From Terriglobus roseus (GTDB lineage: Bacteria; Acidobacteriota; Terriglobia; Terriglobales; Acidobacteriaceae): DNA of 64,000 bases. Position numbers and translations under genes: made by a program. Of this stretch, positions 27,494 to 33,018 are shown piece by piece. The notes beneath the pieces were generated by a model, which was given only the letters and a program-made list of their open reading frames with translations, was not told the origin of the DNA and ran no database searches. Within the stretch, counting starts at the first letter, position 1; the number at the start of each line of letters is the position of its first letter. The stretch spans positions 3,038,001 through 3,102,000 of the forward strand of contig NZ_FNSD01000001.1 in assembly GCF_900105625.1 (NCBI RefSeq), read 5' to 3'.

Positions 27494-28366
27494 CTACCGG
27501 TTGCGTGCGTTCCCGGAAAGCCAGTAAGGCTCTCCCGCGGGAATGAAATCGATTTTCGTGTCGTGGAAGACGGTCTTCAGCCAGGTGGCGCAGTTGTCCA
27601 TGCCTGGCTCTTCCGAGGTGTAGTGACCCAGCAAGATCATGGCTTTGTGGCGGCCCTGCTGTTGCGCATCCCAGACGTAAGAGATGGTCTCCCACTCAGG
27701 AATTTCGCCAGCAATCAGGACTTCGACATCCTCGCGTTCCAGAGCCTGAATCTGTCGGGCCTCGCCGGAAGCTCCCGGCGCGTAAGCTGCCTTGGATACC
27801 TTCATATTCGGGTCGCCCACCACGCGCACAATGCGGTTCCCCATGCTTGCCTGTAGCTGCTGCGCCAGCGCCTTCACGGTTGTCGTGGGGATCGTGTAGA
27901 GGTATTGATTGTCCGCGTTCTGGAACTGCTTCCATCCAGCCTTCTTCGTCCAGCCCTCTGCAATGCCATCCGGCTTGCGCGCGTGCCAGCCGTCATGCCA
28001 GCGGAAGATGACGAGGCCGTGCTCGCGGATGTACGCCATCTTTTCGGCGTAGACCGGATCGTTCTTGAAGAGGGTGTCTGCATCCTGGTGGTTATAGAAG
28101 GTCGGCTCGTGCGTGATGATGAGATTCTCATGCGCCGCAACAGCCTTGCGCAGTACGTCCATCGAAGGTGCAATCACCGTTGCGATGCCCGTGACGACGG
28201 TGGCCGGGTCACCCGCCTTGATGGTGTCCACGGTGTTCGGCACCGCTGTGACGCCTGCGGCCTCGCGCATCTTCGCGATAACCTGTTCTGCGGTGAGGGA
28301 CTGTTGGGCTTGCGCGGAGAGTGTCAGTACGAACAGAGCGAGCGAGACAGGGCGAAGGAGTGGCAT
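27494..28366 (-). CDS. exported NIF3-like dinuclear-metal protein
   Basis: A 290-residue protein with a signal peptide (LLRPVSLALFVLTLSAQAQ). The mature part matches NIF3/GTP cyclohydrolase I type 2-like proteins: DTIKAGDPATVVTGIATV, the metal-binding LIITHEPTFYNHQD, and GHYTSEEPGMDNCATWLK near the C-terminus. NIF3 proteins are normally cytosolic, and their reaction is not firmly known. Export is therefore unusual. The start at 28366 is set by the signal peptide. It ends 29 bp before the propeller gene start, so the two exported proteins may share a transcript. Confidence 0.78.
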   Translation of the reverse strand: MPLLRPVSLALFVLTLSAQAQQSLTAEQVIAKMREAAGVTAVPNTVDTIKAGDPATVVTGIATVIAPSMDVLRKAVAAHENLIITHEPTFYNHQDADTLFKNDPVYAEKMAYIREHGLVIFRWHDGWHARKPDGIAEGWTKKAGWKQFQNADNQYLYTIPTTTVKALAQQLQASMGNRIVRVVGDPNMKVSKAAYAPGASGEARQIQALEREDVEVLIAGEIPEWETISYVWDAQQQGRHKAMILLGHYTSEEPGMDNCATWLKTVFHDTKIDFIPAGEPYWLSGNARNR

Positions 28367-28457
28367 CGAGGACAGTGTCGTCCTGAGTGATACCGAATGA
28401 CAAGGGGGCAGGGACAGTAGTGAAAGAAGTTGACTTCCGATTACAAATATCCGCCTA

Positions 28458-28486
28458 GTTTCCGAAAACACCGTTTTGCGGGAGCG
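28458..28486. repeat. island repeat, copy 1
   Basis: Begins GTTTCCGAAAACACCGTTTT and continues GCGGGAGCG. CGAAAAC and GTTTTGCG form an imperfect hairpin. The 25 bases from CCGAAAAC onward are identical to part of copy 3. It sits between the NIF3-like gene and the first island gene. Confidence 0.7.
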
Positions 28487-28509
28487 CCTGAAGGCAGTAA
28501 TTTGAAGGT

Positions 28510-28959
28510 GTGACATACGCTACGGTGGTTTCGGAGATGTTGAGCCGCCTTCCCCGGCTAGCGACTGCTTACCATGCGAAGTTTGCATATATGGACGATG
28601 AGGAACCCGGTCCCTATATTGTCTTCGGATCCGTCCTCATTCCAGCTTTGGCTGAGGCTCTGGAAGAGGGCGATCTAGGAACAATCCTTCCTATTTGCGC
28701 CTTCTTGGAAGACGCCTCATTCGATGCGCGCAAAGACAACGGATTGGCGGCTCTTATTAAGGTCGAGGTATCTGAGTGGCTTGGGTGGGCTGCAAATGAG
28801 GATCGGCTTGCCCCTTGGCTTGGCTCAGAGACGAAGCTCATTTGCAACTATGTTCCTGGTCTTGCGACGCAGCGGAGGCAGCTACGAGATGAAAAGAAAG
28901 AGCAAAGCCTTTTCTCCCGATTCGTGGCAAACTTCAGGGGATCCAGCCCGGAAGGGTGA
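28510..28959 (+). CDS. small acidic protein of unknown function (island gene 1)
   Basis: A 149-residue soluble helical protein (MLSRLPRLATAYHAKF, VFGSVLIPALAEALEEGD, ICAFLEDASF, VSEWLGW). The pattern recalls small DUF7674-type or immunity-like proteins, but this is from memory and weak. The first start is GTG 28510 with GAAGG very close; ATG 28537 is a real alternative. Codon use is more AT-rich at third positions than in neighbours, as in the next two genes, which suggests acquisition. It is flanked by repeat copies 1 and 2. Confidence 0.6.
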   Translation: MTYATVVSEMLSRLPRLATAYHAKFAYMDDEEPGPYIVFGSVLIPALAEALEEGDLGTILPICAFLEDASFDARKDNGLAALIKVEVSEWLGWAANEDRLAPWLGSETKLICNYVPGLATQRRQLRDEKKEQSLFSRFVANFRGSSPEG

Positions 28960-28985
28960 CCGCCCCCGCCGCATGAGCACTCACT

Positions 28986-29014
28986 GTTTCCGAAAACACC
29001 GTTTTCTGCGAACG
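28986..29014. repeat. island repeat, copy 2
   Basis: The same GTTTCCGAAAACACCGTTTT core as copy 1, then CTGCGAACG. It sits between island genes 1 and 2, 26 bp after the gene 1 stop. Confidence 0.7.
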
Positions 29015-29080
29015 AGGCAGTTCCGAGTTGCCGTGCCCAGTCACAATTGGGCCTCAGCGCGATATGCTGTCACTCAAACT

Positions 29081-29515
29081 ATGTCGGCCAGGAAAGAAGT
29101 CACGTTTGGATCGCGTCCCAAGATCCTCTTTGTCAGGATCTCCCAATGTGCTGTAGCGCTCTGCTTTATCGCGGTCCTGTTTGACGGACAGAGCGTCGCT
29201 TCTTTGGTTTTGATGGGCGTTCCGTTACTGTTTTTTGAGACTTACATGTCCGGGATGGTGCTCGCCCGCTTGAGTGACGACGGACTTGCGTATAAGCGTT
29301 TGGGAACGTGGAAGGAGTTGCGGTGGACAGAGTTCGCTTATGGCGGTGTATCGCCCCTTGGGACGATCCGGGTGAAGCTGCCAAGTCAGCCCATTTGGCG
29401 ACGCTATCTCCTGCTTTTAGTCCCTAACCCACCACTTGAAGACCAAGAGGCATTTTTACCCGGAGCTCGTCGTTTCTGCGAAATCATGGAACCTCCCAGC
29501 GGGCGTACCAACTGA
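29081..29515 (+). CDS. small membrane protein of unknown function (island gene 2)
   Basis: A 144-residue protein with two close hydrophobic segments (ISQCAVALCFIAVLF and SLVLMGVPLLFFETYM). A ~90-residue mixed region follows (LSDDGLAYKRLGTWKELRW, PIWRRYLLLLVP) that could be a PH-like domain on the cytoplasmic side. The frame is open upstream across copy 2, but the ATG at 29081 fits the membrane layout. Its codon use is less GC-biased than that of the core genes. Function unknown. Confidence 0.55.
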   Translation: MSARKEVTFGSRPKILFVRISQCAVALCFIAVLFDGQSVASLVLMGVPLLFFETYMSGMVLARLSDDGLAYKRLGTWKELRWTEFAYGGVSPLGTIRVKLPSQPIWRRYLLLLVPNPPLEDQEAFLPGARRFCEIMEPPSGRTN

Positions 29516-29546
29516 CAGCGTGCGTGTTACAAGCCCAACGCTCTTG

Positions 29547-29608
29547 TAAAGTCGGGTTTGCGGAAACAGTGACCTCGGAGCTGCCGAAAACACCGTTTTG
29601 CGGGAGCG
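29547..29608. repeat. island repeat, copy 3 (composite)
   Basis: The left half reads TAAAGTCGGGTTTGCGGAAAC, nearly identical to copy 4. The right half, from 29584, reads CCGAAAACACCGTTTTGCGG and then GAGCG, identical to copy 1. The reverse complement of GGTTTTCGGAAAC gives GTTTCCGAAAACC, so the two halves are opposite-facing versions of one core. Confidence 0.7.
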
Positions 29609-29619
29609 GAGGATGTAAG

Positions 29620-30006
29620 CTATTCGCCTGCTGCAGTCATGACCCAGAAGGCCAGCGTGCCTAACGCACAGGCAGGCGCATACCATCGAAGCACGTTCGG
29701 CCTCAAAAAACCAGCGAGGGAAAGAAGCAGGGAGATGCAGGACAAGACCGCACCGCATCCGTAAATCCTCATCAACACTGGATCGTAAAAGCCGAAATAG
29801 TGAATCTGAGCGAAAGCTATCGTAGCCAAGCCCAAGGCTGCCGAGCCTGAAGTAAACGCGAAGGACACAAGAGACACAGTGACGCCTTCCGCCGCCGCTG
29901 CCCGCTGCTTCGACCAGCGAACCCATCCGAAAATCAGCGCTGCTGGAGTGACCAAGTAAGCCAAGGGAAGAAGCGTGTAGACGATTAAGGTGTTCACTCT
30001 GCTCAT
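29620..30006 (-). CDS. small four-helix membrane protein of unknown function (island gene 3)
   Basis: A 128-residue hydrophobic protein with four predicted membrane segments (LIVYTLLPLAYLVTPAALIF, SLVSFAFTSGSAALGLATI, GCGAVLSCISLLLSLAGFL, YAPACALGTLAFWVMTAA). It has no recognised motif. It lies on the opposite strand to the other two island genes, between repeat copies 3 and 4. No good ribosome binding site precedes the ATG at 30006, so expression is less sure. Confidence 0.5.
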   Translation of the reverse strand: MSRVNTLIVYTLLPLAYLVTPAALIFGWVRWSKQRAAAAEGVTVSLVSFAFTSGSAALGLATIAFAQIHYFGFYDPVLMRIYGCGAVLSCISLLLSLAGFLRPNVLRWYAPACALGTLAFWVMTAAGE

Positions 30007-30036
30007 GATCGGGCACTCGTTGAACTAATCATCCTT

Positions 30037-30057
30037 TAAAGTCGGGTTTTCGGAAAC
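30037..30057. repeat. island repeat, copy 4
   Basis: TAAAGTCGGGTTTTCGGAAA then C; it differs from the left half of copy 3 at one base. It marks the right boundary of the three-gene patch, before the acnA terminator. Confidence 0.65.
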
Positions 30058-30136
30058 TGCGTGAATTGCGAACGCTAATGCCGTTCCCGTCGCTAGGTGA
30101 ACGTTCGGCGTCGTCGGTTTGTATAACCTTCTTCGC

Positions 30137-30186: not shown

Positions 30187-33018
30187 TTATGCCTTGCCAG
30201 CCAACTGACGCAGTACGTACTGCAGGATGCCGCCGTGCTGGTAGTAGAGGATTTCCTGCGGTGTGTCGATGCGGACGGTTGCGGGGATGCTGGTTATGGT
30301 CCCGTCAGCGTGCTTGGCTTCCACGGTGATCTGCTTGCCGTCGGCGAACTTGCCTTCCAGCATCGCCTTGAGGCCCGGGACCGAGTAGGTCTCTTCACCG
30401 GTCAGGCACAGCGATTCTGCGCTGTCTCCCGTCTGGAACTGCAGTGGCAGGATGCCCATGCCGACCAGGTTGCTGCGGTGAATGCGCTCGTAGCTCTCCG
30501 CCAGCACGAAGCGGATGCCGAGCAGGCGAGGACCCTTGGCAGCCCAGTCGCGCGACGAACCGGAGCCGTACTCCTTGCCCGCAAGGATCGCGAGCGGCGT
30601 ACCGCGCTTGGCGTACTCGACCGACGCATCGTAGATCGACATGCCGGTGCCTTCGGGCAGCAGACGCGTCACGCCACCCTCGGTGCCTGGTGCCACCTTG
30701 TTACGCAGACGAACGTTCGCGAAGGTTCCGCGCACCATGACCTCATGGTTGCCGCGACGCGAGCCGTAGCTGTTGAAGTCACCCGGCTTCACACCGTTGT
30801 CCGTCAGGTACTTGCCGGCGGGGCCGTTCAGCTTGATGCTGCCTGCGGGCGAGATGTGATCGGTGGTGACGGAATCGCCCAGCACTGCGAGCACGCGTGC
30901 GTCGGCAATATCGACGACCGGAGCGGGCGTCGCAGGCATGCCATCGAAGTACGGTGCCTTGCGAATGTACGTGGAGTCGGGCTCCCATCCGTACACGTCG
31001 CCCAGCGGGAACTTCAGGCCTTGCCAGTTCTTGTCGCCGTCGCTGACGGTGCTGTACTGCTTGCGGAACATCTCGGCGTCGATGGAGTCGGCAACGGTCT
31101 TGTTGACCTCTTCCTGCGACGGCCAGATGTCCTTCAGGAAGACTGCGGTCTTATCCGGCGAGAAGCCGATGGGTTCCTTGTCGAAGTCGAAATCAATCGT
31201 GCCGGCGAGCGCGTACGCCACGACGAGCGGCGGGCTCATCAGGTAATTGGCGCGCACGTCCGAGTTGATACGGCCTTCGAAGTTTCGATTGCCGGACAGA
31301 ACAGAGACAGCGACCAGACCGTGATCTTCGATGGCCTTGGAGACATCGGTGGGCAGCGGTCCGCTGTTGCCGATGCAGGTGGTGCAGCCATAGCCGACGG
31401 TGTTGAAGCGCAGGGCATCCAGGTACTGCGACAGACCGGCCTTGTCGTAGTAGTCGGTTACAACGCGCGATCCCGGCGCGAGTGAGGTCTTGACCCATGG
31501 CGGGGTCATCAAGCCCTTCTCGACTGCCTTCTTCGCCAGCAGGCCGGCCGCGATCATGACGTACGGATTGCTTGTGTTGGTGCACGAAGTGATGGCAGCG
31601 ATGACAATACTGCCGTGGTGCAGGTACGGATCGACATCGATGCCGAGGCGCTCTTTGATGGAACCGATGACCTCCATGCCTGTCTCCAGGTGACCAGCCT
31701 TGCCGGGTTCCGGCATACCCACCGTGGATTCAACCGAGCCGTCTGCGGACGAGTGGCCGCCTTCACCCTGCCAGCGCGTGATCTGGCGGTCGCCCTTGAC
31801 GTTGGCGTTGGGGCCGTAGAGCGTGGGAAGAACCTTGGCGAAGCTCTCCTTTGCCTGTGAGAGTGCAACGCGATCCTGCGGGCGCTTGGGTCCTGCAACA
31901 GAAGGTTCAACGGTTGCCAAGTCGAGCGAGAGCGTGCTGCTGTATTCAGCCTCGGGCGCGTCGGCGGTGTGGAACATGCCCTGGGCCTTCTGGTACTCCT
32001 CGACCAGCTTGACCTGGTCTTCGGTGCGGCCGGTCAGGCGAAGGTAGGTGAGCGTCTCTGCGTCGACGGGGAAGAAACCGCAGGTGGCGCCGTACTCCGG
32101 AGCCATGTTCGCGATGGTGGCGCGATCGGCCAGCGGCAGTTCGCTGATGCCCGATCCGAAGAACTCGACAAACTTGCCGACGACGCCGTGCTTACGCAGC
32201 ATCTCGGTCACGGTCAGAACGAGGTCGGTTGCGGTGGTGCCCTGCTTCAACTTGCCGGTCAGGCGGAAGCCAACGACCTGCGGAACCAGCATGGAAACCG
32301 GCTGGCCCAGCATCGCTGCCTCGGCTTCAATACCGCCAACACCCCAGCCCAGTACGCCCAGTCCATTGACCATGGTGGTGTGGCTGTCGGTACCGACGAG
32401 CGTGTCGGGGTAGGCGACGTTGTCCTTCGTGGTGAAGACCACGCGGGCCAGGTACTCCAGGTTCACCTGGTGGCAGATGCCCATGCCGGGCGGTACAGCG
32501 CTGAAGTTGTCGAAGGCCGTCTGGCCCCACTTCAGGAAGGCGTAGCGCTCACGGTTGCGCTGGAACTCGAGCAGCGAGTTCAGGTCATAGGCGTTCTTCA
32601 GGCCATACTCGTCGACCTGCACCGAGTGGTCAATGACCAGCTCCGCTGGCTGCAGCGGGTTGATCTTCTGTGGATCGCCGCCGAGTACCTTCATGGCATC
32701 ACGCATGGCGGCGAGGTCGACGATGGCGGGCACGCCGGTGAAGTCCTGCATCAGCACGCGGGCAGGCATGTAGGCGATTTCGCGGCTGGGTTCGGCGGCG
32801 GGCTGCCACTTGGCCAGGAACTCAATGTCGTCTGCGGTGACAGTCACACCATCTTCGCGGCGCAACAGGTTCTCAAGCAGAACGCGTAGCGAGAAGGGCA
32901 GGCGCGAGAGTTCGACGCCCTTGTTGGCCAGCGAATCGAGACGGTAGTAGGTGTAGCTCTTGCCGCCGCTTTGCAATGTGGCGCGTGCGTCGAAGGTGTT
33001 CAGGGAAGTCGTGCTCAT
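30187..33018 (-). CDS. acnA: aconitate hydratase A
   Basis: Isomerises citrate to isocitrate in the TCA cycle. The 943-residue protein matches AcnA/IRP-type aconitase: [40 protein letters not shown], the 4Fe-4S ligands in TSCTNTSNP and [14 protein letters not shown], and [18 protein letters not shown] in the swivel domain. All three cluster Cys are present. It stands alone with its own terminator. Confidence 0.97.

Follow-up and report, generated by a model that had tools for sequence, protein, structure and literature searches.

Candidate mobile gene cassettes with double exchange sites between a nif3-like gene and acnA in Terriglobus roseus

How did three small genes come to lie between a nif3-like gene and acnA in Terriglobus roseus, each of them set between copies of one short repeat? 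Integrons are the textbook route by which bacteria collect single genes as cassettes, and a preliminary description of this locus had proposed either stepwise insertion of single-gene units at a repeat or a repeat that moves together with genes. We analyzed the patch within a window of 64,000 nucleotides (assembly GCF_900105625.1, contig NZ_FNSD01000001.1, positions 3,038,001 to 3,102,000) and compared it with relatives. The patch is likely a short array of mobile single-gene cassettes with double sites at their boundaries, moved by a recombinase acting in trans. That these cassettes form a system separate from integrons, present in several genera of Acidobacteriaceae and with each half of a site being a complete exchange point, is a reading for which the scales stand about level. 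Throughout, the window strain is the genome from which the window was taken, and DSM 18391 is a separate genome of T. roseus, complete and with dozens of sites, used as a comparison; within the genus we compared 19 Terriglobus genomes, six of which are comparable at the nif3-acnA site.

The repeat is made of two related half-sites, R and L, with five copies in the window: R at 28458-28477, 28986-29005 and 29580-29599, and L at 29548-29567 and 30038-30057. Here R reads GTTTCCG^NAAACRCCGTTTT, where the caret marks the exchange point, and L reads AAAGTCGGGTTTN^CGGAAAC, a near-mirror of R. All four places at which a repeat copy had been reported to mark a gene boundary do exist, but the third is double, hence the five half-sites. 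Several other particulars of the preliminary description were borne out: its first and third copies share 25 identical bases (28462-28486 and 29584-29608), its third and fourth agree at 20 of 21 (29547 and 30037), each of the three genes sits between half-sites, and GC content is lower in the patch (0.542 versus 0.609 in the window), as is GC at third codon positions (0.55-0.64 versus 0.76-0.82 in nif3, acnA and the next gene). The sequence GTTTCCGAAAAC, with up to two mismatches, matches the window 16 times against 3.0 expected, a number reached in none of 100 shuffles, near-palindromic copies being counted on both strands. In the whole genome of the window strain, the R core CCGAAAACACCGTTTT (up to one mismatch; the mismatches allowed ranged from one to three between half-site scans) has three copies, all at the nif3-acnA patch, and its reversed control has none. 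The L core (up to one mismatch) also has three, two in the window and one at position 2134515 of contig C1, where a single unit (L098) carries a DUF4440 gene between an R-like half-site, identified by eye, and L.

From 14 loci we gathered 37 R and 43 L half-sites that depart from the seed by no more than one mismatch; a few places that are near-palindromic were counted twice. Their consensus sequences are GTTTCCGNAAACrCCGTTTTnnGgGA for R and TCCynnAAAGTCGGGTTTTCGGAAACag for L; R and the reverse complement of L have the same two arms around different centres (RCCGT versus CCGAC). When intact, a boundary consists of L, a linker and R, and forms an imperfect inverted repeat of ~67 bp. A search for L and R exchange points 18-50 bp apart returned 55 raw double sites with spacings of 19-46 bp, mostly 24-27 in DSM 18391, and 43 sites remained once 12 mirror images, poor L cores or duplicates had been dropped; some sites with L only or R only may be full sites of which one half has decayed. 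In KBS 89, by its name another Acidobacteriaceae strain, the outer arms are unchanged but CGGCAAGTTCG forms the inner arm, and four junctions have slightly varied forms of one linker; in a further genome (G180) the inner arm is CAGTAA.

The segments running from R to L behave as units. We collected 38 of them from the window, DSM 18391, L098, Edaphobacter lichenicola and KBS 89, counting copies of the same unit separately; their median length is 567 bp and that of their longest open reading frame (ORF) 146 aa. This longest ORF takes up 70% or more of the unit in 31 of the 38, versus 21% of equal-length random segments of the window, and among these 31 it runs along the R-to-L direction in 15 and opposite to it in 16. 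Ten of 40 unit ORFs reached or exceeded a curated Pfam cut-off: LMWPc, DUF6334, CrtO and Rce1-like in DSM 18391, DUF4440 in L098, TonB_C in E. lichenicola, and a metallo-hydrolase, an S41 peptidase, an SDR and an acetyl-CoA hydrolase in KBS 89. A PADLOC search of eight proteins for defence genes gave no match.

When ten DSM 18391 loci and the window patch were compared all against all, 22 matches reached 90 bp or more; eight of them span a whole unit from end to end (six different units, one present in three copies) and four are array edges. With each of the six shared units represented by a single copy, all 12 ends lie no more than 15 bp from an exchange point, whereas 20,000 random placements in the same arrays gave a mean of 0.90 such ends and a maximum of 7, and never reached 12; the tolerance is needed because the half-sites are alike and alignments run slightly into them. 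The break itself can be followed in a unit with an 80-aa ORF, whose three DSM 18391 copies have GTTTCCG, GGTTCCG and GTTTCCC as left flanks and agree from the next base on, while on their right side they agree through GTTTCCG and diverge at N. Two blocks upstream of R, each common to two arrays, stop at the same CCG^N step and are followed by different units, and the breaks of other units fall, with less sharp resolution, at the mirror position in L. To judge from these alignments, exchange maps to CCG^NAAAC, and since breaks occur at the R step as well as at the mirror point in L, both halves appear to act as exchange points.

At the nif3-acnA site, homology between the DSM 18391 flanks and the window extends to the first R on the nif3 side (91%) and to the last L on the acnA side (92%), and between these lie two cassettes that differ from the three of the window strain. 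In G001 the nif3 and acnA matches lie ~165 bp apart with no half-site between them; other genes occupy the interval in G003, G007 and G013, half-sites being absent from the first two and the end of acnA being duplicated in the third. KBS 89 has an array after acnA as well, with its first R 437 bp beyond the acnA match. As to the genes themselves, gene 2 has a relative of 89% aa identity that is a cassette gene in a different DSM 18391 array, at 3.85 Mb; the two differ by 17 synonymous and 16 non-synonymous codons, with 10, 5 and 19 changes at the three codon positions, a pattern that fits modest constraint. Gene 1 has a relative of 65% aa identity elsewhere in G013, between a decayed R and a decayed L (four mismatches each). 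For gene 3 there was no match in the fetched loci, nor by DNA in 60 relatives, a whole-genome protein search not having been made.

The proposal of stepwise single-gene insertion, or of a repeat moving with genes, thus gains support from the varying unit content among relatives, with zero units in G001, two in DSM 18391 and three in the window strain, and from the presence of gene 2 as a cassette elsewhere. It needs correction in that the intact boundary is a double site with two exchange points, not one repeat copy, and single gain events were not directly observed. The opposite picture, of the same genes in every strain and a repeat scattered at random, is contradicted by the differences between relatives, by the clustered and strain-limited distribution of the L core and by the confinement of the R core to this locus in the window strain.

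Within the genus, the L core (up to one mismatch) occurs 33 times in DSM 18391, in about nine clusters, three times in the window strain and nowhere in the 17 other members, and the reversed control is absent throughout. G006 has an R half-site agreeing at all 26 bases and, ~0.9 kb from it, an L-like half with three mismatches (L036:5893-6799), probably one more cassette. Outside Terriglobus, the exact L core is found in Edaphobacter aggregans, E. lichenicola, KBS 89 and Terracidiphilus gabretensis, in addition to DSM 18391, which accounts for 11 of the 17 stretches; with up to two mismatches there are 26 copies in KBS 89, 10 in E. aggregans, two in E. lichenicola and two in T. gabretensis, against none for the reversed control. 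Two singletons in metagenome-assembled genomes (L079, L083) also hold the exact core, look like chance and were not used. A covariance model of the double site, tuned to DSM 18391 and run with strict filters, matched three of 150 family genomes (the window strain, G180 and G185), DSM 18391 itself presumably falling outside the sample drawn. Plasmid relatives of the patch were absent at an E-value of 1e-3.

Viral contigs lacked the L core of the DSM 18391 type and held the KBS 89 type of core in one stretch. There (IMGVR_UViG_649633002_000001, L190:1817-2389), one R-gene-L unit with a 168-aa ORF stands beside a transposase ORF of IS30-like appearance, at an apparent prophage edge.

How such cassettes might move can be outlined as follows. 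An intact boundary would consist of L (TCCYnnAAAGTCGGGTTTN^CGGAAAC), a short linker and R (GTTTCCG^NAAACRCCGTTTTnnGGGA), and we infer a site-specific recombinase in trans, most likely of the tyrosine type and perhaps active to this day, that would recombine pairs of half-sites at the caret. A cassette would be cut out, probably as a circle, and then inserted at another half-site, so that genes and linkers would shuffle independently and genes would come to sit in either reading direction. If either half can serve, units may therefore be R-R, L-L or R-L, and linkers may be separated from genes. The region past the 3' end of acnA would be one preferred place for insertion.

Several points weigh against this reading. 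The searches brought out no enzyme for cassette exchange (within the window, recombinases were sought by a motif scan), and no cassette was seen to move. The remaining 10 of the 22 matches do not follow half-sites, except that two of them have one end 4 bp from an L point and that one continues an edge match upstream. Because the half-sites resemble each other, breakpoints are exact only where letters differ. An exact empty version of an occupied site was not found, the G001 interval having no recognizable counterpart of the flanks, and none of the genomes searched keeps both flanks of the 5.06-Mb cluster of DSM 18391 or of the L098 unit. Decay of half-sites is common in the arrays, and the system may for that reason be dormant in the window strain. 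Finally, internal duplications in DSM 18391 (contamination estimate 10, and a passage in PMC5900883) could inflate copy numbers within that genome; the sharing between DSM 18391 and the window, and between G013 and the window, is independent of them. The features of the patch are collected in Table 1.

Table 1. Coordinates of genes and sites in the nif3-acnA patch, numbered along the window
Feature	Position	Strand	Remarks
nif3-like backbone gene (PF01784), left neighbour	27494..28366	-	inner start codon used; longest ORF reaches 28516, crossing site 1
possible decayed L half, site 1	28422..28445	+	candidate, by eye; clearer in DSM 18391 as AGAAGTCGACTCCCGATTGCA
site 1, R half-site, nif3-side array edge	28458..28485	+	exchange point after 28464; flank homologous to DSM 18391 (L034) up to here
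cassette gene 1, 149 aa	28510..28959	+	weak DUF7674 match, below Pfam cut-off
site 2, R half-site	28986..29013	+	exchange point after 28992; without clear L half
cassette gene 2, 144 aa	29081..29515	+	without Pfam family
site 3, L half-site	29542..29567	+	exchange point after 29560
26-bp linker, L to R exchange points	29561..29586	+	identical linker in DSM 18391 (L032, 6789), between other genes
site 3, R half-site	29580..29606	+	exchange point after 29586
cassette gene 3, 128 aa	29620..30006	-	without Pfam family
site 4, L half-site, acnA-side array edge	30032..30057	+	exchange point after 30050
decayed R half, site 4	30064..30089	+	found at up to 3 mismatches; exchange point would follow 30074; near-identical in DSM 18391 (L034)
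acnA backbone gene, right neighbour	30187..33018	-	3' side bears cassette array in KBS 89 too

The same side of acnA bears a different arrangement in G013 (L174:5115-6236), where a gene that looks trypsin-like by eye adjoins acnA and the last 23 acnA codons are duplicated on the far side of that gene; this hot spot thus seems to have taken up an insertion of a different type.

Could the units be true integron cassettes? On that account, which we regard as unlikely although it survives better than any other alternative, the array would be a cluster of attC sites lacking an integron integrase (CALIN), its sites being strongly diverged attC moved by a distant, lost or unrecognized integrase. The layout is integron-like, with one ORF per unit, imperfect palindromes of ~67 bp, arrays and mostly unknown genes. 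The sites are able to fold as hairpins, weakly so for the window site: of the five strands of three sites folded as DNA, the two of window site 3 gave z-scores of -1.97 and -0.69, and three reached at least as low as -2.9 (-2.92 and -3.76 in DSM 18391, -6.12 in KBS 89). Moreover, two mispaired positions of the outer stem (0.49 and 0.04 paired) are as the attC reading would have them. Selection on pairing is not supported, however. Over the 43 sites, outer arms are paired at 0.721 versus 0.713 in shuffles (reached by 172 of 1000) and inner arms at 0.651 versus 0.661 (752 of 1000); the observed values were reached by 365 and 973 of 1000 shuffles, for outer and inner arms respectively, in DSM 18391 plus the window, by 214 and 71 of 1000 in KBS 89, and by 498 and 424 of 500 when mirror duplicates were included. 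There is a slight hint in the inner arms of KBS 89, which pair at 0.658 versus 0.626 in shuffles. With no covariation of pairing beyond shuffles among the 43 sites, we favour a tyrosine-type enzyme that recombines half-sites in double-stranded form; a serine recombinase is also possible, given a central CG close to the point of exchange. Rfam had no match in the window or in L031, L032 and L086.

The boxes of attC sites are R'' (RYYYAAC) and R' (G^TTRRRY), with exchange at G^TT. None of the 43 sites has G^TTRRRY at either exchange point, or an RYYYAAC...GTTRRRY pair, so that they are not classical attC; shuffles average 0.03, and the result shows absence only, where a true attC set should hold the motif. 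The integrase model TIGR02249 exceeded its cut-off (265 bits) in none of the 19 genus genomes and none of six other carriers, the best scores being 111.5 bits (G009) and 116.3 bits (E. aggregans), and 14 control genomes, none of them integron-bearing, also stayed below it. The use of both L and R as exchange points and the mixed orientation of the ORFs likewise speak against integron cassettes. On the other side, Acidobacteriota figure among the integron-bearing phyla in a passage of PMC8618304, and an attC model for Acidobacteria was built in PMC8352920.

A less probable alternative still is that the units are miniature transposons with cargo, of the kind known as mobile insertion cassettes or miniature inverted-repeat transposable elements (MITEs), with NAAACNCCGTTTTnnGGGA...TCCYnnAAAGTCGGGTTTN as terminal repeats, a transposase in trans and a palindromic target. 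Inverted repeats at the unit ends are indeed kept across genera, and the inner flanking arm is genome-specific (GTTTCCG, TTGCCG, TTACTG) and thus target-like. Yet the empty palindrome GTTKCCGN{0,2}CGGMAAC was found at only two places each in DSM 18391 and G001 and at none in the window strain, G003, KBS 89 and E. aggregans (reversed control: one place each in the window strain and KBS 89), and this rarity or absence in six genomes disfavours insertion into pre-existing dispersed palindromes. By eye, the ends of the window array have no direct target duplication, some units are bounded by R at both sides, and the arrays read contained no transposase-bearing element with these ends, a whole-genome search for one not having been made.

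That the half-sites are passive intergenic repeats, resembling repetitive extragenic palindromes or terminators, between which genes are exchanged by ordinary homologous recombination, seems very improbable. The sites can fold and some of the genes between half-sites in KBS 89 are larger, ordinary ones, as this account would allow, but the identity shared is ~20-30 bp, which is very short for homologous recombination, the break falls at one step, CCG^N, at L and R alike, and the L core (up to one mismatch) is absent from 17 of the 19 genus members. We give slightly less credence again to dif modules like those of Acinetobacter, in which the host XerC/XerD moves genes that lie between inverted Xer sites: the short half-sites, with inverted arms round a small centre and alternating orientation, and the neighbouring tyrosine-recombinase pairs in many genus members, among the matches listed, would suit them, but intact boundaries here are double sites, and the half-site sequence is, to our knowledge, unlike the dif consensus. 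By eye, GTTTCCGNAAACRCCGTTTTnnGGGA also fails the dif layout, given in a passage of PMC6449649 as 28 bp arranged 11-6-11.

If the array is indeed made of cassettes exchanged at double sites, the neighbourhoods of the DSM 18391 arrays hold one lead to the enzyme. A 312-aa XerC-like tyrosine recombinase has two intact copies there (94% aa identity; L122:4757-5695 at 3.86 Mb and L197:8397-9335 at 3.77 Mb), and C-terminal relics of it lie beside the arrays L032 and L092. One intact copy adjoins ORFs that by eye resemble a replication gene and parA. This points to an integrated plasmid, for which the protein may serve as resolvase; in the fetched stretches of KBS 89 no copy at least 60% identical to it was found. 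As the cassette recombinase it is only a lead. A resolvase-like serine recombinase motif at 3.72 Mb lies away from the arrays and was set aside.

Other elements accompany these arrays. Directly before the first R of two of them, and adjoining the recombinase relics, stands a 158-aa ORF (L032:13256-13732, L092:4817-5293), perhaps an array leader, with paralogues at 3.60 Mb (L191). A repeat of 200-300 bp with ends of the TTAATTAGCAAAACGAC type lies beside arrays (L032:14100-14430, L093:4545-4768); it is probably a MITE and seems to truncate a recombinase relic. Another repeat, of ~200 bp and with long inverted ends, occurs at L032:8983-9195, L092:7157-7356 and L094:4440-4605, the last copy starting 4 bp from an L exchange point.

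We found no description of these sites in open-access full texts, long result lists having been covered in part. PMC5900883, passages of which treat the mobile elements of T. roseus and KBS 89, uses the words "integron" and "cassette" zero times in its main text. The best reading is accordingly that of a non-integron gene-cassette system undescribed in searchable open-access papers; the main doubt on its novelty is that the Acidobacteria attC model of PMC8352920 might cover these sites. If this reading holds, there would be a second, unrelated route to collecting single genes, with double exchange sites, and cassette capture would have evolved more than once. It would also give a handle on many unknown small genes of soil Acidobacteria and provide new recombination sites.

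Set beside known systems, the arrays share with integron cassettes the one-ORF units, the palindromic boundary of attC-like size made of two half-sites round a variable loop, and a content that varies between relatives. They differ from them in exchange at CCG^NAAAC, between inner and outer arm, in the use of both half-sites, in ORFs that run both ways, and in having several clusters per genome with no recognized platform. Like mobile insertion cassettes and cargo-bearing MITEs, they hold a passenger gene between inverted repeats without a transposase of its own, whereas no parent insertion sequence or direct target duplication was seen, R-R units occur and empty targets are rare. With the dif (pdif) modules of Acinetobacter plasmids they have in common genes set between short inverted recombination sites and moved without an enzyme of their own, from which they are set apart by sites that are double when intact, by another sequence and by their arrangement as chromosomal arrays in Acidobacteriaceae.

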